The notes under the pieces: model-generated
What the model was told of the DNA's origin: nothing
What the model saw: only the letters and a program-made list of their open reading frames with translations
Database searches by the model: none
NCBI RefSeq assembly: GCF_026210795.1
Contig: NC_089445.1
Span: 2,232,001-2,296,000, forward strand
Direction of reading: 5' to 3'
DNA: 64,000 nt
Source: Rhizophagus irregularis
Lineage: Eukaryota; Glomeromycota; Glomeromycetes; Glomerales; Glomeraceae
Program-made: the position numbers and the translations under genes
In this document: one piece after another, positions 3,550-59,253 of the stretch
How positions within the stretch are numbered: position 1 is the stretch's first letter
Layout: each line of letters begins with the position of its first letter

Positions 3550-4030
3550 ATTTTTTTTATATTTCAGCACTACCACGTGATGCAGCAGCATGCATCAATG
3601 CATCTGCAGTAATCATGCGACCACAAAGTGGGCTGACGCCTGAGAAATTAAAAGTTTGGAAAGGTTTCAAAATATGATTGATTGGCTTGTAATGATCTCG
3701 TATGTTATTTATTTGAATATTAAAACTTCTAAACATTCTTGTCCAGTGAATAGGTTTTGTTCTGCATAAGCTATCACTAAAACGAATAGAAAGAAATGTT
3801 AGTAGAAAACAATATAATTAACAGAGAAAAAAAAAATTTCCTTAAGTCCAGTCTTTCTATATACCCTTGTCTTTTTACTTTCATCGCCCTTTAATTTCTT
3901 TTCTTACTCCTAAATGGTTTGGTTTTGGCTTTTTATTAACCATTCCTTGAACTTTCTATTAAAAAAAAAATTATTTCTAAAAGATACATTTAATCCTCCA
4001 TGAAGAAGCCCATGACGCTGGCATCCTAGA
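3550..4030 (-). other. Unresolved exon-like segments
   Basis: Several short open stretches with plausible splice sites lie here. On the minus strand, pieces read MPASWASSWRIK (about 4020), IAYAEQNLFTGQE (about 3750) and PLCGRMITADALMHAAASRG ending at a TAA near 3555; with donors GTATCT and GTTTAG they can be joined in phase to a peptide of about 53 residues. On the plus strand the same DNA gives an alternative last exon after an acceptor ATATTTCAG (3569), ALPRDAAACINASAVIMRPQ..., ending at TGA near 3677. The two readings overlap, so at most one is right. The composition is less AT-rich than the surroundings, which favours a real or recently dead gene. No family recognised. Confidence 0.3.
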
Positions 4031-4621
4031 TAAAAAGAAAAAAAAAATTTCATGATTTGTAGATTTCTGGATAATCTGATTTATATATAATAATAATAAT
4101 ATTTATAATAATATTTATAGCTTTGTAATACATTTATATTAATATTTTGTTAATAATAAATTCTATATCTGTTGAGTAATTTTATTACTTTTCTAAGATA
4201 TAACGTCAACAGTCAATATTTTTAGCCAAGCCAGTTTCAAATAAAATTACTTTCATTACAATTTGGTGACAGTAATGCATCAGATGGTGATATAAGAAAA
4301 TTCGTGACATTCTTTAAATTTTTAAAATTTTTATGTCGAAAAGATTCGGGTCGTTGCCAGTTATTATTTGCTTAATCTCCTTGTTAGAGTGTTTGAACTT
4401 GCCATTGCGAGGTTCGTAGTTACAAGCATTTTTTTTTTTCTTGATTAATTCAAATACACTATTTCGATTTAAAATCGCGTGAATATTATTATATAATTGT
4501 TTAGCGGTAAATCCGCAGTTACTACGTAAATTTAAAAAAAAATTTATTACTCTAAAAATAAATTTAATAAATGATAAAAATTTATATAATAATTTCTGAT
4601 TTACTACTTTAACGCTCTTAA
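4031..4621. other. AT-rich gap, no gene seen
   Basis: AT-rich sequence between the exon-like pieces and the glycosyltransferase stop codon. It has stop codons in all frames. Nothing further can be supported. Confidence 0.5.
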
Positions 4622-6984
4622 TTAATCGGATTTTAATTTTCCTTCAAATAAAGAAGCTATACTATTAACAATAAAACTAACTACTGACCAACCAGTCCAA
4701 ATTATGGACCCAATTATACTAAATAATAAAATTAATACAACTCCATAAACATCTAAATATTTTCCTCTAATAAATCCCATTCTCGAATCAGGTGTAATCC
4801 ATTCTTTTAATAACCATTCATATATATCTTCTATTGCAGGTTCAATAGATTCAGAATTAGTTTCATTACTTACTTTTTCTGAAGATTCTTTTCCTTCTTT
4901 CATATGTCTATTATCAACAACACTTTCTTTCACATCATTGTTGTTTGGATTTAATTGAGAAGCTTTCATAACAAATTCAATTAAATCGGCAGCTCTATAT
5001 TTTCGTTTACTATTAATTTTTGTTAATATCTGCATTCTTTTTAAATTAATTTTAACTCTGGATTCTAATTGTAAAAATTCGATTTTTCTTACAATATCGT
5101 CTACGTGTAAATCCATTTTATCCAATTTAAGTGCAACACCTTGTTCTTCTAACTTTTCAGCATTAGAAAATTGATCTGAAGCTAATGGTAATATTAACAT
5201 AGGTTTGCCTACATATAATGATTCATGACAACTTGCTACTCCTCCGTGTGTTAAAAATATTTTTGTATTTGAATGATTTAATATGGATACTTGCGGTGTT
5301 AATTCTTCTAATGATGAAGATGTAGTAACATAAATATGAGTATAACGATTATTGAGAATTTCTGACGTTTCTAATTGTGTGTCATCTGACAGCGTTGGGA
5401 AATTTTCAAGACCTGATAATGACCAAACAATTCCATCTATAATATTTCTGTCTATAACTTCTAAAAATGATTTTAACAATATTGCATAATTTTCCAGTGT
5501 CGTGAAAGCTTGCATACCGAATGATACATACATAATTCTCTGATGTAATGACAAGAATGATGAAAGTTTTGGTGTTAATGGTGGGTATGATTCTTGCATC
5601 ACTGGCCCAATTTCCTAATTAAATTTTCATTTGGAAGTGCATTAAAAACTTGAAATGAAGTATTAATGATATACTTAAGAAAGAACGCTTACTTGATAAA
5701 GTGGAGGTACAGGATGTGGAATCTAAAAAAAAAATATATATGTATATATAATATTTTCTATCAATTAATGCACTTGTTATCGAATTAACATTCAAATTTC
5801 CTCCTTCCTTTCTTCATTTCGTACCTCAAAACCAAAGTAAGTATCAGCCAAGAATAAAGAATTTTTAATTCTTTCTAAAGAACTAGTTATAGGAGATACA
5901 CCAACCGAAAGTCTTTTTTCATTTAAAAAAATAATTCTCTGTCTAGATTCATAAAGAAATCTGGCGGGTTGTATGATTAAACATTTAAATCTCTCGATAA
6001 ATGATCCTTTTTCCATATTCGAATGACATCCATAAATTGGATCTGATTTGTACGGTGCAAATGTTCGCCCTAAAATAAAAACGTTTTGTTTAAAGAAGTA
6101 GTTACGAGTTTCTTTCCTTCTTTCTTTTATAAAAAAAACCTTAAAAACAAATACTTACTGCTTAATGAACTGCTAACACCAACTGCTGGTATTTTAAATT
6201 TCCATGCAATATCAAAACAAGCTTCGTTATTTAATAAATCACATAAAAATAAATCTGGTTTAAAATCTATCGTAGATCGTTTATAAACTTCAAATCTTTC
6301 TGAATATTGTTTATCCGCTTCATCTTTTTCCAAGAAAAATGAATTATAATCGTATGGTTTTTCATATATTTCTTTATATATGTGTAATAATTCTTTTGTA
6401 TTATGTTCCGGTCCAGTGGAATATTGTCTTATCGATGGATAATTTGTGGGTGACGTAAAATTTCCTGGTGCAACTAAAGCTACCTACATAATTTGAAAAA
6501 AAAAGAAGAATGAAAAGTTTATCAATGCTATTTATAAACCAGAGAATAATTTTACCTTATATCCGCGCTCTATCAAAATCTTACAAATTTCCAATGATGG
6601 CCTAAGATGACTTAACCCTACACGAAAACAAACATTTAAAACAGAATAAACGAATAGCAGCATACTCAAGTGTTTGTATTGTTTACCTCCAACAAATGAT
6701 CCAACAAGTATATTTTTTGTTTCATTAATATTTTTATCAATTTCAAATTTACCAAATTTATTAGGATCGGGTTGTTTTTTAGTAAAAATATTTTTAAAAA
6801 TACTCCACAAAGAAGCCGTTTCTGTCGGATTTCGTGATGCTGTTGATTGTGTTTTTGATGAATCAGCTTGATTTATTTTATCTGATGACGATGCATTTAT
6901 CCCAATGACAATTAAATGAAATAAAATAATTGTCAATAATAAATAATATTTTGACGGGCGATTTGAAAAATTTAATAAAGTCAT
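4622..6984 (-). CDS. UDP-glycosyltransferase, membrane-anchored (650 aa, six exons)
   Basis: Transfers a sugar from a UDP-sugar to a small acceptor (GT1 family, GT-B fold). Exons on the minus strand: 6687-6984, 6556-6617, 6159-6483, 5825-6069, 5693-5722 and 4622-5614, all with GT/AG borders and matching phases, total 1953 nt. The N terminus has a hydrophobic signal or anchor (about residues 14-30). His103 in SHLRPS is at the place of the usual catalytic base. The UGT signature is clear at about 440-485: FLTHGGVASCHESL and GKPMLILPLASDQ. A second membrane segment near 610-636 (VVLILLFSIIGSIIW) followed by a short tail gives the animal-type layout: lumenal catalytic part with a C-terminal anchor. 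Length fits the family. Acceptor unknown. The gene lies in tandem behind the F-box gene at 7.3 kb; only 79 bp separate its ATG from the extended frame of that gene. Confidence 0.88.
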
Positions 6985-45203: not shown

Positions 45204-46914
45204 TTATTCTTCTTCAATTTCTTCAGATAAATCTTGTTCTAAATACATTTCATTTAATTCTTCAAAATCATCTAGTATTTCGATATTATTTTCTATTTCT
45301 TTCTCTTCTGAATTCTCAATTGTTACTCCATTTTTAACTAACTCTTTAATTGTTAATGGAACATTTAGTTCTCTTAAAATCCGAAGATTCCAATATATAT
45401 ACACTAATTTTTCTGCGCAATCATTTATTAATCTATTTCACAATTTTGAATGAATAAATTTATATGCTGACCAATTTCTCTTGCTCGCTGCAGATATTGC
45501 GGGAATAGAAAGCAATTTTAATGCTATTGAACTAAGCAATGGATATCTTTTTTCTAACAAATGCCACCAATTAATTGGTTTATTTTTTATATTGCCCCAT
45601 AAATAAGATTTAGAAAAACCACTACATTTTCCAATAAATTCACTATATTCTTCTAAAACTAAATTTTGATTTTCCTCACCTGCTAATCTTATCAGTTCTT
45701 CTTCAATAATGTCATCTTAATACTGGTTATTTAATAATTTTCCATTGTACCTCGGATCTAATCTGTATGCAACAAGAACTGCAGGATTATATAAAAATTT
45801 ATTTCAACGATATTCAGCTTTTTAAATTGCATATACACTAAAATCATTAGGAATTTTGGTATTATTTTTGATTTGAATTTCAATTTTACGCAAGTTAATA
45901 AATGCAGTAGAAAGATATGGGTCATCTTGTTCAAGCTGTTGAATAAAAATAATAAATGGCAACAAAAAATCTTGCAAATCTTTAAGATTAGTCCAAAAGA
46001 TATCGTCTAAAATCTTAATTTTTATTTCACGATCTAAAGCTATATCTTCCCCTAATAAAGCCATCATTGCCATTTTAGATTTGAAAATACTATCTAAACA
46101 CTGATATGCTGATAACCACCTTGTTTCAACTGGTAAACTAAGGCCAATTTCCTTCCCATATTTATCCTTTTGAATCCTACGAAGTGCTGCAAGTGGAACT
46201 TGATGATTACGAAAATATAAACTTAGTTTTTTTGCCATATTTAAAATTTCATTAGCCCAATTATGCTTTATAATATCTTTTACCCAAAGATTTATACCAT
46301 GCGCCTAACATCCTAAAAATATTTTATTAGGGTATTTTTCTTTTAAAATTCTCCAAGCAGCTTTCATGTTATTTGCATTGTCAGTGATAACAGCAACAAA
46401 CTTATTAATTCCAGCTTCTATCATAACATCCTCAATACCTTTAGCTATATTCTCTGCATTATGACTTTGTTTTTTAGTATTCACTGATTTATAAAATATT
46501 GGTTTTGGTGTGGTAATCATATAATTAATTAATGGTTCTTTATTAATATTTAACCAACCATCACTTGTTAAACAAAAATATGGTGGTTCGTTCAAAACAT
46601 TTTTTGTTGCAGCTCTTATATTTTTGTAATCATTATTCAATAAATTTACAGATAATAATTACTGTGTAGGAATCTTGAATGATGGACATGCTTTTTTTAA
46701 AAAAATTTGAAAGTTTTCATTATCAATAGTATTGAAAGGAATTCCAGTACTATAAAATGCACGATCTAACAAAAATTCTAATTCTTGTTGGTCTTCATTA
46801 CTAATACTTTGCATATAATTATTGATTTTTGTTTGTTTTCATTTTTTAATATTAGTTGAATCTGAAGAAATTGGTAAATTAAATTCTTGAAAAGCTAATC
46901 TTGCTGAACAAGTA
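45204..46914 (-). pseudogene. hAT transposase, main part (DUF659-like and dimerisation region)
   Basis: Minus-strand remains directly following the BED finger at 59120-59253. In order: FLLDRAFYSTGIPF, then YFCLTSDGWLNINKEP and AVITDNANNMKAAW (the DUF659/RNase-H-like core with its Asp residues), AHGINLWVKDII, PVETRWLSAYQCLDS, and the C-terminal hAT dimerisation stretch (INWWHLL, IPAISAASKRNWS, FIHSKL). It ends in an acidic tail (EEIEEE). At least seven in-frame stops occur, at codons where Gln (CAG/CAA), Trp (TGG) or Arg (CGA) is expected, so all can be single C-to-T or G-to-A changes. No frameshift is evident. Inactive. Confidence 0.8.
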
Positions 46915-46959
46915 CTTTACAGAAACCTTGAATTTTTAAACAATACCGAATTGATATAA

Positions 46960-47720
46960 TAATGATGTTAAATAAATATCGTGGCGATATCGATTTGCAA
47001 ATGATATCATTATGATATCGCAATGATATCATTTCAATATTAATTCAATATATCGAAATGATATCGTAAAGATATTTGTTTGAAAAAATATCAGATCGAT
47101 ATCATTTCGATATTGTTATAACAACAATGAATTTTTTGAAAAATGGAAAGTAAATACGATATTAATATGATATCGTTCCAACATTAATTCAATATCAATA
47201 TGATATCGTAAAGATATCACTTTATAATTATCTAATCGACATCATAACGATATTGACGAAACATCAAATCGATATCATATCGATATTTCGATATTGTTAT
47301 AACAATAATGAAAAATAGAAAGTAAATACGATATTAATATGATATCGTTCCAACATTAATTCAATATCAATATGATATCGTAAAGATATCACTTTATAAT
47401 TATCTAATCGACATCATAACGATATTGACGAAACATCAAATCGATATCATTTCGATATTGTTATAACAACAATGAAAAATAGAAAGTAAATACGATATTA
47501 ATATGATATCGTTCTAACATTAATTCAATATCAATATGATATCGTAAAGATATCACTTTATAATTATCTAATCGATATTGACAAATAACGAAACGATATC
47601 ATTTTGATATTGTTATAACAATAATGATTTTTTTAATAAATGCAATATCAATATAATATTATTTTAATATTAATTCAGTATCAAAATAATATCAAAATGA
47701 TATTATCTATAAAAATATCA
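46960..47720. repeat. Left subterminal array, ATATCG/GATATC repeats
   Basis: About 760 bp of repeats made of ATATCGATATC-type words. Three units of about 170 bp (starting near 47140, 47310 and 47480) share AATAGAAAGTAAATACGATA, AACATTAATTCAATATCAAT and TTATAATTATCTAATCGA. The palindrome GATATC occurs many times. Placement next to the left end of the 12.2-kb transposon, mirrored on the right, suggests transposase or accessory-protein binding sites. Confidence 0.7.
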
Positions 47721-49403
47721 AATCAATCAAATATCGTTAAATTCAATTTTATAATATTTTAATAATTTGTAATCTAATTTAAAAGTTAATTTCAATAGAT
47801 TTAAGTTACCGGTTATTTATTACAATAACAATTTTAATTACAGATAAAGTATACATTAGTTTAAATATTATATAACAGATAAAAAAAATATCAATAAATC
47901 TATAATAAACTAATTCAATAAATTAGAATTATGAGTTAAATTGGTGATGTAAGTCAAAACATTATGCCTTAATACTCCAGAATCATAACTCATCAACCCA
48001 AAGTTGAGGATTAACCGGGTACCTTGCTTTAGATTCAGCGACACTGCCCAAGTTGGATGGGGTGTCACAGGTATGCTTTAAGAAGACTCGCTATGACTCT
48101 ATTGCAAAAAGGATAAGTATATTCGAAAACACCAGACATAAATTCACCTCAGAAGTTTGGCGGGAAACCCCTATAAACAACTGCAGTTTCATCATTACCA
48201 AAATCATTGAACTTAGGGATACAATGAAAAAGTTCATGAGAATGACGGCTTTAAAAAAAAATACAAATATATTCTCAACTTTGACAATGCACCCTTATTC
48301 TTTGGCCTGGAATTCTCATATGACTAAATTATTGTTGTTTGTAATTTGATCCATTGAATTCACTATAAATTGCCAGGCAAAGCGAACTTTTATTAGATAA
48401 CCATAGCTTCATCAACAAACGTTGCAATGTGTTTGGACAGATGACATCCTGTTTAATAAATTTTAAATGGGCAAACGTGGACCTAAAACCCATTAGAAGA
48501 TAGGCTGCAAGAAGTGCAAAGCAACCTACCTAACCCACGAGTGGGTCTAAGGGTTAGGGAATAAATTAACGCCCAAACACACACAAGTTAGTATGGAGTT
48601 AAAGTCTTACAAACTAAAAATTATTTTGCCACTTAATTCTCCAATAATCAATGTTATAAAAAAGTTACTTACGACTTAAGCCTACTTAATTATATATAAA
48701 ATGACACTTCGAACAGACAGAGCTCATGATATATGAGAATATCCCATCATGCCTATTTTAACCCTTGATTAAAGGATTTTCGTTGCGTTATCAAACTGAT
48801 TATATAAGTTTTACGCCTATATAACATAAGCTTATGCCCATATAATCAATCAAACAAGTCCGCCTTTTCCTATAACACACTATGCACGATGGCAAACGGT
48901 ATAGGAGGAAGACTCTAATTTTCAGAAAGAAAGTTTTTTTTTTCAAAAAAAAAAAACATACAAATAAATAGCGGTTAAATAAAATGGTGGTTGAATTGAC
49001 TTTTTAGGAATTAATAGGTCTTATACGTGATTATTTAATATACGCGATCATTTAATTACGTGATCATTTAATCAGACAATTTTATAAATTTGGTATTATA
49101 CGAACTTGATCAACCAATAATTGTTTAGGTAATGCACGGATGAGTTCTTTATAGGTGGATATTATCAAAATAGAGCCAAATTAACTTTACACAGTTTATA
49201 TAGATAATTGATTATTTAATGGTAATAACACAACAAGTTAAAGAAATTCAAATATGATTGAATCTCAACAGATATTCAAAACTTTTAAAACTTTTTGTGA
49301 TTTTTCGATTGAAGCTAATTATTATTAAAGTCTATACCATTAAAAGAATATAATTAAATAAACTAAAAAGAAATACTCAATAAAACTCAATTTTATTTTT
49401 TTA
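47721..49403. other. Region inside the 12.2-kb element without a clear gene
   Basis: 47930-48560 is less AT-rich (ACACTGCCCAAGTTGGATGG, ACCTAACCCACGAGTGGGTC) and could be an old gene or repeat fragment; a 98-codon open stretch at 48053-48349 starts with TTG and shows no domain. CCCACGAGTGGG is a perfect short palindrome. The rest is AT-rich with a T run and A run at 48945-48975. Confidence 0.35.
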
Positions 49404-50738
49404 TTAAAATTTTATAAAATCATTTATTAATGATTCTTCTTCGTCATATAATTTTATAAGAACGCACCTAAATCTATAATTTAATTTTATTAATATATTA
49501 TTATCAAAGGCGTGATGTGCGAAATAAATAAAATAACTTACTTGTTTTAGGGTATTTACTATATCACTTCCACTTCGGGAAGGGATAATTATATTTTTAG
49601 TCATGGTATCCAACTCCTTTATACCAGGTAAGTTTTTACCGTCCCAAGAAACGCGGACGGCTTCCTTAACAAACTCAACTAACGTATCCATGCCTCCATT
49701 ATTTGTCAATTCCAAAATATTGACAGCTGTGAGTTGACGGTTTAGAAGTTTCTGCACCACGTTTTCGTCAACGTAATCTTTAATTTCTTTTTGGGAAAGA
49801 TTTCCAGTCGTACCCCTATAATTAATTAATTAATAATTATACAAATAACACTATTTTGTTGACTATAAAACAATAAAATAAACAAATACCTGCTCTTTCT
49901 GATTTCTTTGTATTCCCTCACTAAATTTAGAATATTTTGGTTGAATTTATTCCTGAAGTCTGTTAAAGACTTACGAGTTTTATCTAGATATCCTCTAGCT
50001 TCGCTAGTGTAAATTTTAAACCGAAAAATTTTCACAACCAAATTGTCGAGTGCTTCACTACTCGGATTCCTCACTCGTAAAAATAAGCACTTTACCGACT
50101 CATCCCATAATCGTATTTTATCCTAAAATATTGAGATACGTTATTTGAGATTTAGACATAATAAATATTATCATATTGTATTAATACTAACTTCAGTATT
50201 CTTTGAACTAACAACATAAGATGATTCGTTCATCTCATTCGCTAATCGTAAGATTTCTGGATTTTTTACAAGCCAGTTACATATGTCTAATTTGGTACAA
50301 AACTGAAACAGATCCAGAATTGTTTTAGCCACGCCTAACTTGACGTTATCATCATCTTCTTCTTCTTCTTCCTCCTCCTCTTCTTCTTCACTTTTATCCC
50401 TTACATCCTCTTCTACTATTACTTCCTTTTCACTTTCGTTATGTTTTTGCCTGGTATTCATATCTGTATGTAATATATTATTTCAATTATTTCAATTAAA
50501 AATTAATAGAATAATATTAAAGAGCCAAAGCCTATATAAATTAATATTTACCTAATAATAATTGATTAGTTTCTTCAATATTTATTTCTCTCCTCTTTCT
50601 CGGTAAGGTCCTTTGATTTTTTTTCGATCCTATTATACATATTTTGGTTATTATTCTTACATATAAGCAAAACTTTTACGGAAGAGTTACATATATACCT
50701 GTTTCGATTTCTATTTCTTTATTATTACGTTTAGTCAT
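49404..50738 (-). CDS. Unrecognised transposon-borne gene (about 344 aa)
   Basis: Minus-strand gene inside the 12.2-kb transposon. Exons 50699-50738, 50552-50629, 50192-50463, 49890-50122 and 49404-49815 have good splice sites and matching phases. A further GTAAGT...TATAG intron (49474-49541) could be removed from the last exon, giving a protein ending soon after TLKQ. Seen: a Lys/Arg-rich N terminus (KKNQRTLPRKRREI), a Glu/Asp run (about 18 acidic residues), then helical sequence with paired Lys/Arg and hydrophobic residues (AKTILDLFQFC, VKCLFLRVRNPSSEAL, SLTDFRNKFNQNILNLVREY) and VRVSWDGKNLPGIKELDTM. No family recognised. Unlike the transposase gene nearby it has no stops or frameshifts, which suggests it was under selection or is younger. 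It may be an accessory protein or captured cargo. Confidence 0.6.
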
Positions 50739-52046
50739 AATATCGTAATGAGAGAACAAGAGAAAATGAGAGAACGAGAAAAAAAGTGAAGTAAACTTCT
50801 CGCAAGATTGTCATGATATAAATGAGATCTCCTTGATCAAAAGAGCGAGATTGTCGATATAACCCCTTGATCAAATATGGGATATAAAACGAGGTTGTCA
50901 CGATATAAATGAGATCTTAGTTACTGTAATTTTAATTATAGAACGTAATTGGAAAGTATGCAGGATCTCAATATCGTTGTGTACCGTATAAATTGAGGGG
51001 AATGCGGGATCAGTTGAAAATGTTGAAAGATGGAAAAAAACTATGATTTCTAGAGGATCGGAAATTAAATTTAGTTTATATAAATAAATAATTACAATAT
51101 CGAATTTCATTCAGTGACATTTTTTTTTATATGGAAGATTACCTCAAATTGATTTTACGGTTCCAAATTTTATTATATTTTCAGGCTATACGTGGAATGA
51201 GAAGAAAAATAATGGAAAGGGTGAGAAGAAAAATGATCGGTAGAAGAAAAAGGAGTGAAAAGAAATTAATGGAATATTACGTTTTGAATTTCCATTTTTA
51301 TGTGTGATACGATGACATGCAAGAAAAATTAAATTTTTAAATAATTATACTCTTGACGATAAAATATAAAATATGATCGGAAAAAAACCAATCAATAAAA
51401 AAGATCGATTATTTTTAAACTGAACCATGTGATGATCCTATCTAACTAAGCCATATCTAAGCCTTATTTAGTGTAAGCCCCTGGATTGATTACATAAAAG
51501 AATTTTTTAAATAGATAGATGGGATTTACAGTAATCAACTTACAACGATATTTGAAAAATACTGATATATTGATATTTTATACTGTAGGAAAGAGTTTTA
51601 ATACATATTGGTGTAATCAAATATCGGTATATAATGTATCAACTATACAAATAATGCAAGTCATGTGCAACTAATCATTTGTCTAATTGTTCGGTAATAT
51701 TCTAAAACGGAGTAAATTAAGATCGAATTAAGTTCCTTACGGTGTAGATTAAGGTTAGCTTAAAATTCAGTATAATTGTAATATATCATCGCAGTGTAAT
51801 ATGAAATATAATCAAGGAAGGACATGCGTGGTTTAAAATATTACATTTTCTTTTACCTTAAATATAATTTGCAGATTACTTTCGTCTTCTTTATTGCTTT
51901 TTTTAATGTATAATTATAAATAACATTTTTAACTCACTTTTTATTAATAGAATTTGTTTATTTATTTTTATTTATATATATTAATTAACGTCGTGATGCA
52001 GTATTACTGTAACTATATTTTTAAAATAAATTAATAAATCAAAAAA
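50739..52046. other. Promoter side of the unknown gene and spacer
   Basis: 50790-50925 holds imperfect repeats (GAGATTGTCGATATAA, GAGGTTGTCACGATATAAATGAGATC). The remainder to 52046 is AT-rich without genes. Confidence 0.4.
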
Positions 52047-52452
52047 TTATGTGTGTATTCAATGTTAAATAAATTAATTAAAGATGATTGCATTAGAACT
52101 AAAAAATTTAGACAAGATCATAAAAATAAACTCAAAGAAATTAAAAAAAAATATGTGTGTATTCAATGTTAAATAAATTAATTAAAGATGATTGCATTAG
52201 AACTAGACAAGATCGTAAAAATAAACTCAAAGAAATCAAAAAAAAATTATGTGTGTATTCAATGTTAAATAAATTAATTAAGGATGATTGCATTAGAACT
52301 AAAAAATTTAGACAAGATCGTAAAAATAAACTCAAAGAAATCAAAAAAAAATTATGTGTGTATTCAATGTTAAATAAATTAATTAAGGATTGCATTAGAA
52401 CTAAAAAATTTAGACAAGATCGTAAAAATAAACTCAAAGAAATCATAATAAA
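52047..52452. repeat. Four-unit tandem repeat, about 104 bp each
   Basis: Units start near 52047, 52152, 52247 and 52351 with TTATGTGTGTATTCAATGTT and end AAACTCAAAGAAATCAAAAA. One unit lacks AAAAAATTTA and another lacks three bases. Because unit lengths leave long open frames on both strands, short basic peptides (NKLIKDDCIRTK) appear, but these are side effects of the repeat. It lies directly upstream of the Myb/SANT gene and might be part of its promoter. Confidence 0.75.
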
Positions 52453-52513
52453 TTTATTATAAATATAGAGCCTTTTCTTGACATTTTCCCCATCAAACTA
52501 ATAATATTTAATA

Positions 52514-53127
52514 ATGGCAGCATTAAACTTAAACGCAAATCTTCCAGTATACATTCAATGGCCCGATGACGCTGCTTTGACCTTAATTCAGCGTCGTCAG
52601 GCCTATCAGCCCTTATTCACCACAACGAGGTTACATAACCAAAAACAATTATGGCATGGAATTGCTCATGATATACGAAACAACCACACATTCAGGCCAA
52701 CTAGAAAACAATGCAGAGAGAAGTGGAATGCACTAAAGGCGGGGTACGAGAATCTAGAGAGGCTAATCAATAGAAATCCTGATGATTACCCTACTCGTAC
52801 CCGTCTTTGCACGACGAGAGGTTCCACCAAGAACTCTCAGACGAGTTCTGGAGAGTTGAGCGTAAGTATTTATTATTTAACTGATTTTTTCATTAATTCA
52901 TTGCATTTATATTAATAATTGCTTTGTTTTAAGCATTAGTCCGGTCCTCCCGGAGAAATAGGGTGGATCGTAGGACATACGAGTATAGAGAGCGCAGGCG
53001 CTCTAGGCGCTCTCGCTCCCGATCCCCCTATCACCACCGAGAGCGCAGGCGCTCTCGTTCTCGATCTCCCTACTACTGAGAGCGCGGGCGCTCTCATTCT
53101 CGATCTCATCGTCACCGACGTCATTAA
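52514..53127 (+). pseudogene. Myb/SANT-like protein with RS-rich tail, frameshifted
   Basis: Starts MAALNLNANLPVYIQWPDDA. Residues about 18-90 form a Myb/SANT-like (trihelix-type) DNA-binding domain: WPDDAALTLIQRR, LWHGIAHDIRNN, RPTRKQCREKWNALKAGYENL. Near 52805 the frame changes: the expected continuation ERFHQELSDEFWRVE is one frame over. That frame ends at a good donor (GAGC|GTAAGT, 52861/52862) and joins in phase to an exon at 52934-53127 rich in Arg-Ser pairs (RRRSRRSRSRSP, twice), with one TGA before the last 15 codons. DNA of the tail is GC-rich with GAGCGCAGGCGCTC palindromes. So it was a DNA-binding protein with an RS tail, a possible accessory factor of the transposon, now broken by one frameshift and one stop. 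Confidence 0.62.
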
Positions 53128-53149
53128 TATTTTTATTTCATTTTATTTT

Positions 53150-53340
53150 TATTTTATTTTATTATATGTTTTATTTTATTTTATTATTATGTTTTATTTT
53201 ATTTTATTATTATGTTTTATTTTATTTTATTATTATGTTTTATTTTATTTTATTATTATGTTTTATTTTATTTTATTATTATGTTATATTTTATTTTATT
53301 ATTATGTTTTATTTTATTTTATTATATACTTATTATTTTA
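53150..53340. repeat. Short-period satellite, about 23-bp unit
   Basis: Seven to eight units of TTTTATTTTATTATTATG type, nearly identical. It directly follows the Myb/SANT-RS gene and is followed by an AATAAA word (53343) that may serve as polyadenylation signal. Confidence 0.8.
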
Positions 53341-53738
53341 TTCAATAAATGACATTATTCGATAATATTATTTGTCATACCAATTGTCATTAACCATATA
53401 CAGTATAATTGACCCTAAATTTTGTGTATCCATTAATAGCCAAATCGGCATTAATTTAACCGAAGTGATTACTTAATTGGCAATTGCATTTTTTTTTTTT
53501 TTTTTTTTGCCGACACGCTTAATAAATTTAAAGTTCTAATTGAATTAATAAAATTCTAGTTAAATTTAAATTAATTTAAATTGTAATTGTTATAAAGATA
53601 AGGAGACGATATAGTCACGCCAAACCAATAAAACCAATTCGAATTCGAAATCAGTTTTCTTACAGCAATCTTGGTGAGACAACTACTTCCGGTGAGAGAC
53701 GTTCACCTGTACGTTTACCTGATAATGATGACGATAAC
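53341..53738. other. Spacer before the transposase gene
   Basis: Contains an 18-20-base T run (53490-53508). A possible acceptor TTTTCTTACAG (near 53669) followed by in-frame codons into the ATG at 53739 (NLGETTTSGERRSP) suggests an upstream coding exon that I could not place. Confidence 0.35.
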
Positions 53739-56700
53739 ATGGACTTTCAGTATAATCACGAAGATAATGATTTAAGTTTTCAGAACATTAATGATGATGA
53801 TAATGAATATGGATCAATTGGTCCTCAGTATTACAATGATGAGATGGAAGATGATGATCAATCATTTGATAATGAAGAGGAAGAAGAAACTGACAATGAA
53901 TACAATAGTGAAGAGGAAGAGGAAAATGACAATGAATACAATAGGGATGAGGAGGAAGATGATGATAATGGAGACAATAATGAAGAGGAGGAAGAGGAAG
54001 GTAATAATGAAGAGGAAGAGGAACATAACAATGACGAAGAGGAACGTAATGACAACGAAGAGGAAGAAATACATCAAATTGTTGAAGCTTTGGATGAAGA
54101 CAAGATACCGTCCTGCAATGGTGAATTTGCACCGTACTTTGATAATTATACAACTACGGCACTATTTTGTTAGCTTCAGAAGCATAATGTTTCTACAAAA
54201 GCATATGAAGACCTTGTTGATATCATTCATAATCCTCAATTCGAACCTACTCATGTAGTAAAAAATATCCGTAGATTCCAATCATGGAGAAAACGTCTTC
54301 CTCTCCTACCAATAATAACAAAGCCTATTCAAATTTTACCAAAAAAAACTCCGTCAACTTCGTGAGATTCGAAGCTTTCATATCAACTCTCAATTAGTAA
54401 TATTATATTGCGTGTTCTCAACAATCCAATGCTGATGAAGCATATGTATTTCAGACCCGGTGTTAATTCTGAAACAAAGTTAGAATATTGGCATGGAACT
54501 TTATGGGGAGAATCACCACTTTTTGGACAACATGAAATAATAATATCAGAAGGTAATAGGACAATATACTTTGGTATAATTATAATTTGTTAACATTAAA
54601 ATATTTATTTTAATAAAATAGTAATATATCAATCTGGTGATTTTGTCTACTATCATGATAATGGTCTTAAAAAACGTGGAAGGTTGAGAGCAATTTTAAA
54701 AGATGAAAATGGAAACTATGAGTTACGAGTTCAACTAATTTTAAATTATGATGATTTACCTGGAAATATAAAAGGGCTATCAAGACGACGTCGTTCTCTA
54801 ACTGGGAAAGTATGGTTTCAGGATGAACCATTTATAACCATAATTACCTCTCAAATTTTAGAGAAAGTAACTATAATGATGACGTATAAACACCAAATTA
54901 TTCCAGAAGGTTCATTACGAATTACTGAAATAATTTATAAATGTAATGACCGTTGGCACGTTCGTGATGCAAAGCTTTCATACCAACATCCTTCAGATTA
55001 CATTTCTGTCAGAAATCCACCGTCATCTATGCCAGTTTATAAGCTGTTTTTAGATCTTTACTATGATGATTTTGGTACATTTAGAAATGTATATCATTCC
55101 TTAGGTGGCGTCTATATACAGTTTGGTAACATGCCAACGCATCAGAGAAAGCTAATCAAGAACCATTTTGTTCTTGGATTTATTCCTTTTGGTGGAAATT
55201 TTAACGAGTTTATGGTACCATTTGTTTCAGAAATAAAAAAATTTGAGAAAGGAAAGATTATGACTGTTCAAGGACAAGATGCATGGGTTATTGCTGGGTT
55301 GGACCTTGTTACAGCAGATCTACCTCAAGGTAATAATATGGCAGGAGTACTGAGGTATTTTTCAATTTAATTATTAATCTTAATAATATATTTTCGTAAC
55401 AACTATTAAAATGATTTAAATTTAAAAATCAATTTAGACATAATGCAAATAAAGGTTGCCGTACTTGTACAACTAAAAAGGAATCATTGAGTACCTATAA
55501 TCAGGATAGTGTGACAACATTACGTTATCATCATATCACAGATGAAGAAATTTCAAAAATTTCTCAAGAATCTGTAAGTTCAAAAGAGGACAAATTTGTA
55601 CAGAATATGGTTTAAGATCATTACCTAGTATTTTGGATAAATTAAAACGTGAGAGACGTTTACAGTACGCGGGATATTTATCGTACCCTAACAGGAAAGA
55701 TTGGGCGGCTACTAAAACTAACCTGTGAATTATTTTCACAAGAAGGAGAGGATGATTTTGTTAAAATTTGGAAAAATTTTGAAATTCAAAAAAAGTGGTC
55801 TCGTCTACCAAATCCAATTAGTCATTACAATAGCTTTATGATGTCTGATCTTCTTAGACTAGCTATGATTATGCCATTTTTATTAAATCGATTTTTAAAG
55901 GAATCAAGCCTCAAAAATAATGAAGCAGCCACTATTCGACAAAGGATTGATGTGGCTCGAATTAGCTTAGTGCTAAAAGCTATTATATCTTGTTGGGTAC
56001 AAGTTGCAAAGACTATGAAAGCAGTTTTTAATAAGGAATTTACGTTAGATAGCTATGAGGAATTACAGCTATGTCTTAAAGAAGAGTTTTTAATTCTTCC
56101 AAAGGTATAATTATAAATTTGAAATTCAGAACATGGAATAATTCAATAATTAACAATATTTTGTTTTTTTATAGGTTTTTGCAAGTTTTGTTAACTTACC
56201 AAATATACATATTAATATGCATCTTTTGATGCATGCTAAAACTTTTGGTACACTTGTCAACTCTCAGGTTGGTATAAAAGAGATGGTTCATCGTATCTTT
56301 AAAGGAATGGTACCAAAAACTAATTGCAAAACTATAGACCTGGATTTATTAAAACGTTACAATACTTTATTTGCAATTCGACATTTAGCAGATGGAGGTA
56401 TAGATCCAAGATTAAATAGATCTTGTACTGGGTTCACAAGTTCAAATTTTGATCAATTATTTTCGAATTGGTATGTTACAGAAGATAAATATTTAATTGA
56501 GGAACAAATTCAAAATGATGACGTAAAAGGTAAGATAGCAAAATATTATAGTACTTCATATTTATTTTTTCACATATGCATAATATTTACTAATCTTTTA
56601 ATTTAGTTACTTCACCAGTAAATTTTATTTCCAATATTTCCTTAAAAAAAGAATGTCAAAGCAGGAACATGATAAACTTCTCTTGACTTTGCATAATTTT

Positions 56701-57177
56701 AAAATTGAATTGTTTTTATCTTATGTGGATATGAAGTTTGAAGCGGCACTTATAAATTCTTCAATTAGTTGGTACAAATTAGCATCATATACAATTGAAG
56801 AAAAAAATGGTATTCTTTCAAAAGTTCACCTACATCTCGGTGATTTTATCACAATTTATGAAGAAGATCATGAAGAATCTTATGCAATAATCAAAGGTAT
56901 CTTTCAACATAAGGGTAATAATAACAAATATTATGCATTTATTGTTGTAGATTGGTTTGAAGATACTATGGTTGAACATTCAGTATTAAAATGTCCACTT
57001 TACCGTCTTCAAGCAACAGGAGATAAATGGAGACGTATTTTTCCAATTACTGTAATAGATAATGTTCAAAAAGTACACTTTATTCATAATTGTAATTCAG
57101 AAAGGTGCCAACTACCAAATCATGATACTACAAATAGAATTTGGATAAAAAATAATTTTTATTTTACAGCCATATAA
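53739..57177 (+). pseudogene. TNP2-like (CACTA/EnSpm-type) transposase, degraded
   Basis: Plus-strand gene with exons 53739-54552, 54622-55354, 55438-56104, 56175-56529 and 56607-57177. The N terminus is a Glu/Asp/Asn-rich low-complexity tract of about 100 residues. The transposase core reads VYKLFLDLYYDDFGTF, SLGGVYIQFGNMP, LGFIPFGGNFNEFM, GLDLVTADLPQGNNMAG and HNANKGCRTC, the TNP2 pattern with its conserved Asp and Cys residues. Later: NMHLLMHAKTFGTLV, VHRIFKGMVPKT, RHLADGGIDPR. The C-terminal domain (YAIIKGIFQHKG, YYAFIVVDWFED, VHFIHNC) resembles the reader-like tail of these proteins. Breaks: TAG where Trp is expected (after ALFC), TGA for Arg (after PSTS), a one-base loss near 55580 (SKEDKF), a shift near 55665, and one in an A run near 56650. 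Inactive in this copy. Confidence 0.78.
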
Positions 57178-58439
57178 TTATATTAATTATATAAATATAA
57201 TAAAATAATTATTTAATTTGTATCGTATAAAATTTTGGTTAAAATTAACCAATAAAATCATATGCATGATGTAATAATAAATTAAAATTAACCAATTAAA
57301 ATCACTTTAATTACATGCATGTGATATCTAAAAATAGCTAAAATTCGCGTTTATTAATGAGATTTTTTTTGTTTATTTTCAAAAATACACTTTTCTCTTG
57401 TCTTTTATATTAACACTTTACGGTATTTTGTTCGTCTCTTCTTTTCTCTTTTTAAAGTATACTTTAATTATCTTTTTACAATATTAACAATACTTTGGGA
57501 CACTTTAGTTTATATATTCAACATAGTAAAACATCCACATACGAAAAGCAAGAATAAAAAAAGAATAAAGAAAAGAAAATGTACCCACCACTTACATACG
57601 AAAGAAAAGAATAAAAGAAAGGAAAAATGTACCCACTTAACCACATACAAAAGAGAAAAAAGCCATTTTTTAAATAAATAGTGGAGCTGTTAAGCAAGGT
57701 ATGAAAATAGGATGTACGCGTATTTTTCATATTTTTTTTACAATATGTTGTGGTTTGAGTATTTTTTTGTTAGACTGTGGTATAAATGTGAATATATTTT
57801 TCAACGGCCATGTATCTATTGCTTGTTAAATATATTTGCAATTTCTTTGTTAGACTGTGGTATTACAATATGAAGTGTGAATATATTTTTCAATGGCCAT
57901 GTATCTATTGCTTGTTAAATATATTTGCAATTTCTTTTGTAATATTTGCTTTAGCCTGGAAGAAAATGTTGTAAAATAGGGCTGGATATTTATGGCATTT
58001 TCCGCCTTCCAATTACTTTGTCCGGGGGTAGCTTGACAATTTGTAGTTGTCCGTCAGTCGTAGCAACCAGCATTTTTTTACAATATTATGATTTTAAGAA
58101 ACAAAACACTCTCAAAAAAATTTAAAGAAAGAACTAACTTAAAAATATTATCATTTTTATTATTCTTTACAAAATCCCAGAATTACCTGCTCTAACTATT
58201 ATCCCAAGGTTATGTATTAAATTTTAAATATATTTTACAAAGAATACATTTTATTAATCATGATTGTTTTTTTTATATATATATATATTTTTTATCCATC
58301 CACTCACATACGAAAAGAAAAGAATAAAAAAGAGAAGAAAAAGGAAGAAAAGAAACGTACTCCACTCACCCATAATAATTCACTAATAAAAAATTATTAT
58401 TATTAATGTATAATAAATAATAAACATATATTACAATAA
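57178..58439. repeat. Transposase 3' flank with direct repeats
   Basis: 57770-57945 is a direct duplication of about 85-95 bp (TTAGACTGTGGTATAAATG, GGCCATGTATCTATTGCTTG, each twice). CACATACGAAAAGAAAAGAATAAA-type words occur at 57535, 57595, 57650 and again at 58305-58360. The segment 57960-58060 (TTTTCCGCCTTCCAATTACT, TTGTCCGGGGGTAGC) is less AT-rich but not coding. Confidence 0.5.
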
Positions 58440-59095
58440 AAATATTTTTGTGATGTTAATTCAGTGTTGATATAATATCATTACGATGTAGTTACGATAT
58501 TAAATAAATGTAAAACATTTTTTGTAATATTAATTCGATATTAATATGATATTATTATGATGTAGTTACAATATCAAATAAAATTGTAATATTAATTCAA
58601 TGTTAATACGACATCACTACGATGTGGCTACGATATCAAACAGATGTAAAATATTTTTGCAATATTAATTCGATGTTAATATAATATCACTACGATGTGG
58701 TTACGATATCAAATAAAATGTCAAATATTTTGTAATATTAATTCAATGTTAATACAATATCACTACGACATGGTTACGATATCAAATAAAATGTCAAATA
58801 TTTTGTAATATTAATTCAATATTAATATGACATCACTACGATGTAGTTACGATATCAAATAAATGTCAAATATTTTTGTAATATTAATTCAATGTTAATA
58901 CGACATCACTACGATGTGGTTACGTGATAATATTTACATCGCATAATGATCGCAGCGATATCGCAGAGATATCGAACTAATCAATATCGAATAAATACAG
59001 TTACGACTAACTTAACGATGTCGAATCTATATTTTATCAAAATATCGTAATGATATCGTAATGATATCATTGCGATATCTAATCAATATCGATTG
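58440..59095. repeat. Right subterminal array, ATATCG-type repeats
   Basis: About seven units of 70-80 bp on the pattern TAATATTAATTCAATGTTAA, TACGACATCACTACGATGTGG, TTACGATATCAAATAAA, followed by denser GATATCG words (58950-59095). It shares the GATATC, ATTAATTCAATAT and ACGATATC words with the left array but has a different unit length. Together they bracket the 12.2-kb transposon. Confidence 0.7.
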
Positions 59096-59117
59096 TAAAC
59101 TCCAAGTTTCAGCAAAG

Positions 59118-59253
59118 TATTATAATGATCAAGTAATCTAGTTGCATTCATTGCTTTCTCAGTATCACAATATTTACATTGAAATCGTTTCTTCCCATTT
59201 TGATCAGTTTTTTCTTCAAATTCAGACCAAAAACTAGATTTTTCTTGTGGCAT
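59118..59253 (-). pseudogene. hAT transposase N terminus, BED zinc finger (split)
   Basis: ATG at 59253 (MPQEKSSFWSEFEEK) and a BED-type finger: FQCKYC, then 13 residues, then His in LLDHYN. The last metal ligand, the Cys of NTCSARLAF, is on the other side of the 12.2-kb insertion at 46912. Codons stay in phase across the junction once the insertion is taken out. BED fingers at the N terminus are typical of hAT transposases and bind the element's ends. Confidence 0.82.

Follow-up and report, generated by a model that had tools for sequence, protein, structure and literature searches.

The window analysed here is the whole 64,000-nucleotide stretch of the Rhizophagus irregularis genome (NC_089445.1, positions 2,232,001 to 2,296,000), within which a 12,203 bp insert at 46915-59117 interrupts a hAT transposase gene. 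The insert is a transposable element with inverted CTTTRCWGAAAC termini. Its left junction reads TA followed by CTTTACAGAAACC at 46915 and its right junction reads GTTTCAGCAAAG followed by TA at 59117. Between the two ends lie a transposase gene, an accessory gene referred to as open reading frame A (ORF-A) and a Myb/SANT-like ORF, bordered by subterminal regions that contain tandem repeats (Table 1).

When the flanks of the element are fused with a single TA, the MPQEKSSFWSEFEEK..CKYC..DHYNTCSARLAF reading of the hAT gene is restored; when both TAs are kept, the reading breaks at the junction. The fused frame has additional in-frame stops elsewhere, therefore this hAT copy is decayed. Its identity is given by a DUF659 match (PF04937, E 1e-17) at 46308-46658, in the middle part of the gene. 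An empty paralogue of the site (locus L094, C9:4278590-4278964, where C1, C2 and so on are contigs of the assembly) is 96% identical and is uninterrupted, with one TA. The first-pass annotation of this DNA had described a TA-flanked insert with inverted ends inside a hAT gene, and both junctions and the empty paralogue bear this out. It had further held that removal of the insert and one TA restores the frame and rebuilds a BED zinc finger. The local frame is indeed restored, but the rebuilt hAT N-terminus has no Pfam zf-BED match and the finger therefore rests on the visible Cys/His pattern.

Table 1. Features of the element and its insertion site (positions in the window).
Feature	Position	Strand	Basis and remarks
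Host hAT gene	45825..59253	-	N-terminal part 59253-59120, remainder from 46914 downward; decayed; DUF659, joined frame, empty paralogue; 3' limit approximate
Left TA of 2-bp target site duplication	46913..46914		Sequence; one TA in empty L094
Left terminal inverted repeat CTTTACAGAAACCTTGAATTT	46915..46935	+	Sequence; genome pattern search
Left subterminal array, GATATC(G)-rich	46936..47814		18 GATATC in the element's first 900 bp vs 0.2 in shuffles; CpG observed/expected 3.45; tandem 172-bp repeat 47086-47575
ORF-A, accessory gene	49468..50738	-	Exons 50738-50699, 50629-50552, 50463-50192, 50122-49890, 49815-49542, 49473-49468, predicted by inspection
Myb/SANT-like ORF	52514..52861	+	PF13837, E 4.2e-10; first exon by inspection
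Transposase gene	53598..57177	+	Exons 53598-54552, 54622-55354, 55438-56104, 56175-56529, 56607-57177, predicted by homology to the open C20 copy
Region homologous to N-terminal BAH-like domain	54630..55010	+	Predicted fold of relative L073; sub-threshold Pfam BAH in relative L116; homology; window stretch itself without Pfam hit
TNP2-like DDE core with C(2)C and H(3)H	55029..56330	+	Motifs, hhalign; broken in exon 3 in the window copy
C-terminal region, weakly BAH-like	56773..57174	+	PF01426 in 2/7 aligned members, best E 8.7e-4; window member E 0.062
Right subterminal region	58218..59096		Tandem ~73-bp repeat 58570-58924; 9 GATATC in last 900 bp vs 0.2 in shuffles
Right terminal inverted repeat, reverse complement CTTTGCTGAAACTTGGAGTTT	59097..59117	-	Sequence; genome pattern search
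Right TA of 2-bp target site duplication	59118..59119		Sequence; flank comparison; empty site

The ends of the element recur throughout the genome, which was searched in one assembly of 146.7 Mb in 32 contigs. A 21-bp degenerate end pattern (CTTTRCWGAAACYTKGARTTT) has 135 matches, as against 0 and 0 for the reversed-pattern control. This pattern was used without the flanking TA (135 matches, 100 of them listed), a version including the TA (77 matches) being biased. The left 201 bp of the element have at least 42 full-length matches, and the right 201 bp have at least 40 matches covering at least 200 of their bases. Among the 116 ends listed for the two main types, 40 inward-facing pairs (80 ends) can be made out, spanning 8–27 kb and mostly 12–15 kb, so that the paired ends anticipated by the annotation are found, together with flank duplications and empty sites. 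With the C12 and C31 pairs the total noted is 42; 38 were examined (8 whole copies and 30 end pairs), C1:4041698, C2:582711, C15:2310505 and C32:207849 being left out. At least one more pair, C6:5589119-5602183, comes on top of these 42. Chance pairing of the ends is ruled out by the pattern control of 0 and by the shuffled-pairing control described below. The element is genuine, is present in many copies and has paired ends.

Identical 2-bp flanks are present in 32 of the 38 examined pairs (22 TA, 4 TT, 3 AA, 2 AT and 1 GT), whereas shuffled pairing gives a mean of 15.1 matching flanks and a maximum of 24 in 10,000 shuffles. None of the 38 pairs has exactly three matching flank bases; one has four and one has six. 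TA is clearly preferred, making up 22 of the 32 matching pairs against 12.7% of the flanks. Empty paralogous sites carry a single copy of the dinucleotide, this being TA at the window site, AT at five loci read, TT at two and AA at one. Beyond the window ten flank pairs were joined and four of these were searched, with an empty site found for three; for a further AT insertion (L039/L040) there was none among the best 40 of 782 candidates scored. The matching flanks and the empty sites together indicate that the target site duplication is therefore 2 bp in length and not restricted to TA. The 2-bp TA duplication previously reported is thus correct for the window site and in its length, but not as a rule of TA alone. 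Tc1/mariner elements have a strict TA duplication, and were rejected as a class for this family since 10 of the 32 matching pairs are TT, AA, AT or GT.

As an alternative account of the split in the hAT gene, a fault of the assembly or a chance juxtaposition has next to no probability. In its favour is that the analysis is based on one assembly, yet the same boundaries recur in the 38 examined pairs at different sites and there are empty paralogues at four insertion sites.

Several further observations concern the ends. In the pair L051/L052 the end reads CTTTATAG, with a TA flank. The insertion site of L029/L030 (C14:110271) is within a high-copy AT-rich repeat, the empty version of which is present in tens of near-identical places. 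At C6:5152737/5153053 and C6:5202552/5202868 the left end is doubled about 316 bp apart; neither has a matching 2-bp flank, and these two of the six mismatched pairs were scored with the outer left end. The 27-kb end pair at C15:2310505-2337579 encloses a TNP2 (PF02992) match at C15:2323671, which suggests a nested insertion. A short end pattern (CTTTGCAGAAACYT) has 123 matches in the genome and 2 in the control. Seven inward CTTTGCAGAAACCT pairs are about 3.7 kb apart (C3:5476295-5480018, C6:1066007-1069727, C9:2046693-2050415, C15:1848455-1852163, C15:3772018-3775740, C19:428212-431886 and C21:3225090-3228814) and two more are about 2.9 kb apart (C7:2588439 and C17:1478165). These are likely to be short non-autonomous families with the same ends.

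The transposase gene of the window copy is broken, having lost its start codon, acquired in-frame stops and suffered a frameshift in exon 3. A complete transposase can no longer be encoded by this copy, which would depend on others. In the C20 copy (L003), five exons identified by inspection give a stop-free protein of 1,113 residues. When the cores of 13 family members are compared by hhalign with eight TNP2 sequences from this genome, some of them near copies, the result is 97.8% (E 6.8e-13, 336 columns), with the two D residues, C-x2-C, the His in TPQDVYH, PNLHxxxH and the E in register. Reversed controls give 0.6% and 0.06%. The TNP2-like transposase reported from the single sequence is in this way supported. 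The motifs LDLYYDDFG, TADLPQGN, GCRTC, TPQDVYH, PNLHxxxH and KEMVH supply the D, D, E, two Cys and three His that are the signature of the CMCT group (Kojima 2025, PMC12730594). The His of TPQDVYH presumably corresponds to the third His of Kojima's figure legend. A PDB profile search with the core gave nothing useful.

Between subfamilies the transposase has a ratio of nonsynonymous to synonymous substitution rates (dN/dS) of 0.19 (C7-C20) and 0.24 (window-C20), and against the diverged C8 and C4 families described below it is 0.13 and 0.18, codons with stops being excluded from all such counts. These values speak for purifying selection. The family is very probably one of cut-and-paste elements of the CMC group.

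A tree built from sequences of this genome (13 of the family, 5 of TNP2 and 4 of Plavaka) keeps the three groups apart, with support of 100/98 for TNP2, 100/100 for the Plavaka (PLAV) group and only 52/91 for the family. The separate lineage that had been proposed therefore stands as far as its position apart from the TNP2 and Plavaka sequences of this genome is concerned, but its own clade is less firmly drawn. An ordinary CACTA/EnSpm element with drifted ends would account for the TNP2-type core, the subterminal arrays, the size and the candidate helper gene. It is nevertheless an improbable explanation, as neither CAC nor CACTA ends occur in the 38 examined pairs, in agreement with the annotation's view that the ends differ from those of CACTA elements, and none shares exactly 3 bp. 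Neither the spliced protein at E 10 nor any of the 13 aligned cores at E 1 matches PF02992 (TNP2), which has at least 155 matches in the same genome; these TNP2 sequences form their own group in the tree, and a BAH-like domain precedes the core of the family.

It is very improbable that the element belongs to Plavaka. Plavaka elements are prevalent in R. irregularis (PMC11075540) and have 2-bp or 2–3-bp duplications (PMC12730594), and the family cores do align with Plavaka by hhalign (80%, E 1.4e-5, 181 columns), with one of the 13 cores matching PF18759 at E 0.045. TNP2 outscores Plavaka in the same comparison, however, and the spliced protein has no PF18759 match. Among the matches listed, the PF18759 places, of which the genome has at least 123, are all more than 6 kb from the 95 transposase places of the group that were compared. 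Plavaka ends are moreover TGT or CATCA (PMC12730594), and the PLAV group is separate in the tree.

An unexpected feature, missed in the first-pass annotation, is a BAH-like domain ahead of the catalytic core. For the relative L073, structure prediction of the exon 1b-3 region gives a block at residues 1-120 with a predicted local distance difference test (pLDDT) score of 70-91, and some C-terminal helices are confident too. In the VIA comparison of this model all 50 shown rows are BAH domains or BAH-containing proteins, the best with a Z of 12.2 over 117 residues. Foldseek ranks 1-16 are hits of this kind, with E 3.8e-5 as the best value. Chains of RAG1/2 complexes follow at ranks 17-26, with a best E of 0.026 over about 400 columns and a probability of 0.12-0.41. 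Independently, a Pfam BAH search of the genome has 7 matches, 3 of which are 121 bp ahead of transposase cores of this group; these three are taken as near-identical places because their scores are equal. One relative, L116, has a single open frame of 466 residues with BAH at residues 2-96 (E 4.3e-5, 23.8 bits) followed by the core, and from the first residues of the domain this frame is 39% identical to exon 2 of the C20 transposase over 247 columns. The transposase thus appears, on the evidence of a predicted fold and homology, to carry a BAH-like domain before its catalytic core. A DNA transposon bearing BAH would be a counterpart to the retrotransposons with chromodomain integrases. Among the titles and abstract openings listed, from sources other than subscription journals and Repbase, none describes BAH in a CMC-type transposase or together with Plavaka.

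The subterminal regions of the element are distinct from its interior. In the four copies counted there are 18-22 GATATC per 900 bp on the left and 9-17 on the right, compared with about 0.2 in shuffles, and the interior is at chance, which bears out the subterminal arrays noted in the window. CpG observed/expected is 2.6-3.5 in the subterminal regions of four copies (46915-47814 and 58218-59117 in the window) and 1.0-1.2 inside. These high-CpG ends may have a bearing on methylation control of the ends.

Four diverged relatives (C18, C4, C8 and C25) were fetched with their flanks. The C18 relative is 8.3 kb, with a catalytic core that is 57% identical, CTTTGCAGAAAC ends and TA flanks. The C4 relative is 8.9 kb, with a 64% identical core, CTTTACTGAAAC ends and TA flanks. 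The C8 relative is 12.2 kb, with a core of about 75% identity and similar ends, its flanks being CA and TA and therefore non-matching. For the C25 relative (core about 40%), no such ends were found in the fetched flanks. The GATATC arrays are absent from the C4 relative (0 and 0) and the C18 relative (0 and 1); the C8 relative has 15 on the left and 10 on the right, with a further 13 in its interior. Three of the four relatives thus have the dozen terminal bases in common, and two of these three are without GATATC arrays. Scans of viral and prokaryotic contig collections with the transposase alignment found no relative, which says nothing on other fungi.

ORF-A is present in all eight whole copies, including the 8-9 kb C15 and C16 copies that are without most or all of the transposase gene. 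It also occurs in the families of C4, C8 and C18, with matching stretches at 28-63%, and was not found in the C25 relative. Its dN/dS is 0.19 (C16-C7), synonymous divergence (dS) being saturated between C7 and C20, and to judge from its sequence ORF-A is under constraint. A listed transposase is no more than 8 kb away from 11 of the 18 diverged ORF-A places compared, where 0.19 are expected; the 18 ORF-A and 95 transposase places were hand-picked among the matches listed and include several near-identical copies from a single family. The strand of ORF-A is the same as that of the transposase in the C4 family (L106, C4:4098500-4103499, 3789-4637) and opposite in the window, C8 and C18 families.

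The Myb/SANT gene is present in six of the eight whole copies and is weakly constrained, with a dN/dS of 0.52-0.82. It is absent from all four relatives, no genome-wide search for the gene having been made. Because of this gene the element was also considered as a Harbinger, which was rejected on the same distribution and weak constraint and because neither the spliced transposase nor the aligned cores gave a Harbinger match. The proposal that this lineage has accessory genes of its own accordingly holds for ORF-A, which is kept with the transposase in diverged relatives, and is not supported for the Myb/SANT gene. Between the window/C7 and C20 (L003) subfamilies the left 2.2 kb are about 96% identical, yet dS is 0.38 for the transposase, 0.17 for the Myb gene (C7-C20) and saturated for ORF-A. 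These subfamilies look like mosaics, with the ORF-A segment as if exchanged between element lineages.

A mechanism can be proposed in which the transposase would assemble on the CTTTRCWGAAAC ends, helped by proteins on the subterminal arrays. It would cut the element at its ends and join it to target strands staggered by 2 bp, with TA preferred. The subterminal repeats may be bound by the ORF-A protein, the Myb/SANT protein or both, by analogy with TNPA in En/Spm; ORF-A is the helper candidate by position and conservation. TNPA is the helper in En/Spm, and from one CACTA family to another both the helpers and the repeats vary (PMC2613891). The BAH-like domain, it is suggested with moderate confidence, would dock the transposase or the integration complex on nucleosomes or modified histones, from which chromatin targeting may be inferred. 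A broader reading, tentative but possible, is that these elements are an undescribed CMC lineage. A BAH reader would be built into the transposase ahead of the RAG1/TNP2-like core and would find target or donor DNA by nucleosome state, while ORF-A, kept across the lineage, would recognise the family-varying subterminal repeats.

A number of results weigh against the main account, of a CMC cut-and-paste family with a BAH-like domain in its transposase. For the element itself, 36 of the 116 listed ends are without a partner within 30 kb and the 2-bp flanks of six of the 38 pairs do not match. The spliced 1,113-residue C20 protein has no match to a Pfam transposase family at E 10, and the single PF18759 match among the aligned cores is to Plavaka. 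The between-family dS of the transposase is near saturation, and dN/dS is relaxed between close copies (0.71 for window-C7 and 0.69 for C20-C3), in line with decay of the copies. ORF-A has no Pfam family above threshold, and the model of its C-terminal domain is of low confidence (pLDDT 60.5) and helical at most. For the BAH-like domain, the call comes from the predicted fold of one relative and from Pfam scores below the cut-off, at 23.8-26.9 bits against 30.8 in the three near-identical places. By sequence, BAH is not matched in any of the seven N-terminal regions of alignment A6, that of the window among them, and PDB sequence searches with both BAH-like regions found no BAH. Much of the catalytic stretch of the L073 model has a pLDDT of <50, and the model does not include the exon that carries H(3)H and E.

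If true, the presence of a BAH-like module in a CMC transposase would open chromatin reading by a cut-and-paste element to direct testing. A transposase group without a Pfam match now has ends, a duplication rule, a candidate helper and empty sites, which is enough for annotation and for an excision/integration assay. For the CMC-Transib-RAG group, the resemblance to RAG1 complexes, which is weak and predicted, is a further data point. About half of the R. irregularis genome is repeats (PMC11075540), and since Plavaka has already been reported as prevalent there, some copies of the family may already be in repeat libraries as CMC or Plavaka.

Among known systems, the CMC/CMCT clade resembles the family in its D, D, E, C(2)C and H(3-4)H residues and in its duplications of 2 to 5 bp (Kojima 2025, PMC12730594), the residue set being present here and the duplication being 2 bp in 32 of 38 pairs. 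The termini of that clade are CA..TG 'in most cases' (PMC12730594), whereas those of the family are CTTT..AAAG. The element might instead be a member of an already named TA-inserting CMC lineage from another organism, such as ESTA (Pucciniales) or the CNEST clade (Cryptococcus), with which it is compared by description only. ESTA is EnSpm-like with TA duplications and CMC motifs (Kojima 2025, PMC12730594), and CNEST of Cryptococcus neoformans, in the CMC supergroup, has 2-bp TA duplications (PMC12810828). This is rather unlikely, as the family also has non-TA 2-bp duplications and CNEST has CACGG rather than CTTT ends, 33-bp inverted repeats and a length of about 7.2 kb (PMC12810828). The accessible parts of the ESTA and CNEST descriptions mention no BAH domain (PMC12730594, PMC12810828).

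Plavaka is like the family in being abundant in the same genome and in its short duplications, and unlike it in having TGT..ACA or CATCA..TGATG ends and the PF18759 domain. The CACTA/EnSpm elements (En/Spm, Tam1, Tgmt*) share with the family a TNP2-type core, subterminal repeats, a transposase accompanied by a second gene, and large elements with deletion derivatives (PMC2613891). The family differs from them in its CTTT rather than CACTA ends, its 2-bp rather than 3-bp duplication, the lack of a PF02992 match and the BAH-like domain before the core, and in that its second gene stands apart from the transposase gene, is read from the other strand in the window's family and lacks a Pfam match. 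Sly1-1 of Neurospora crassa appears to have a duplication of at least 3 bp (PMC4592977), unlike the family; it is like the family, the second genes being compared by description only, in being a CMC element, at 11.5 kb, with a transposase and a divergently transcribed gene of unknown function (PMC4592977).

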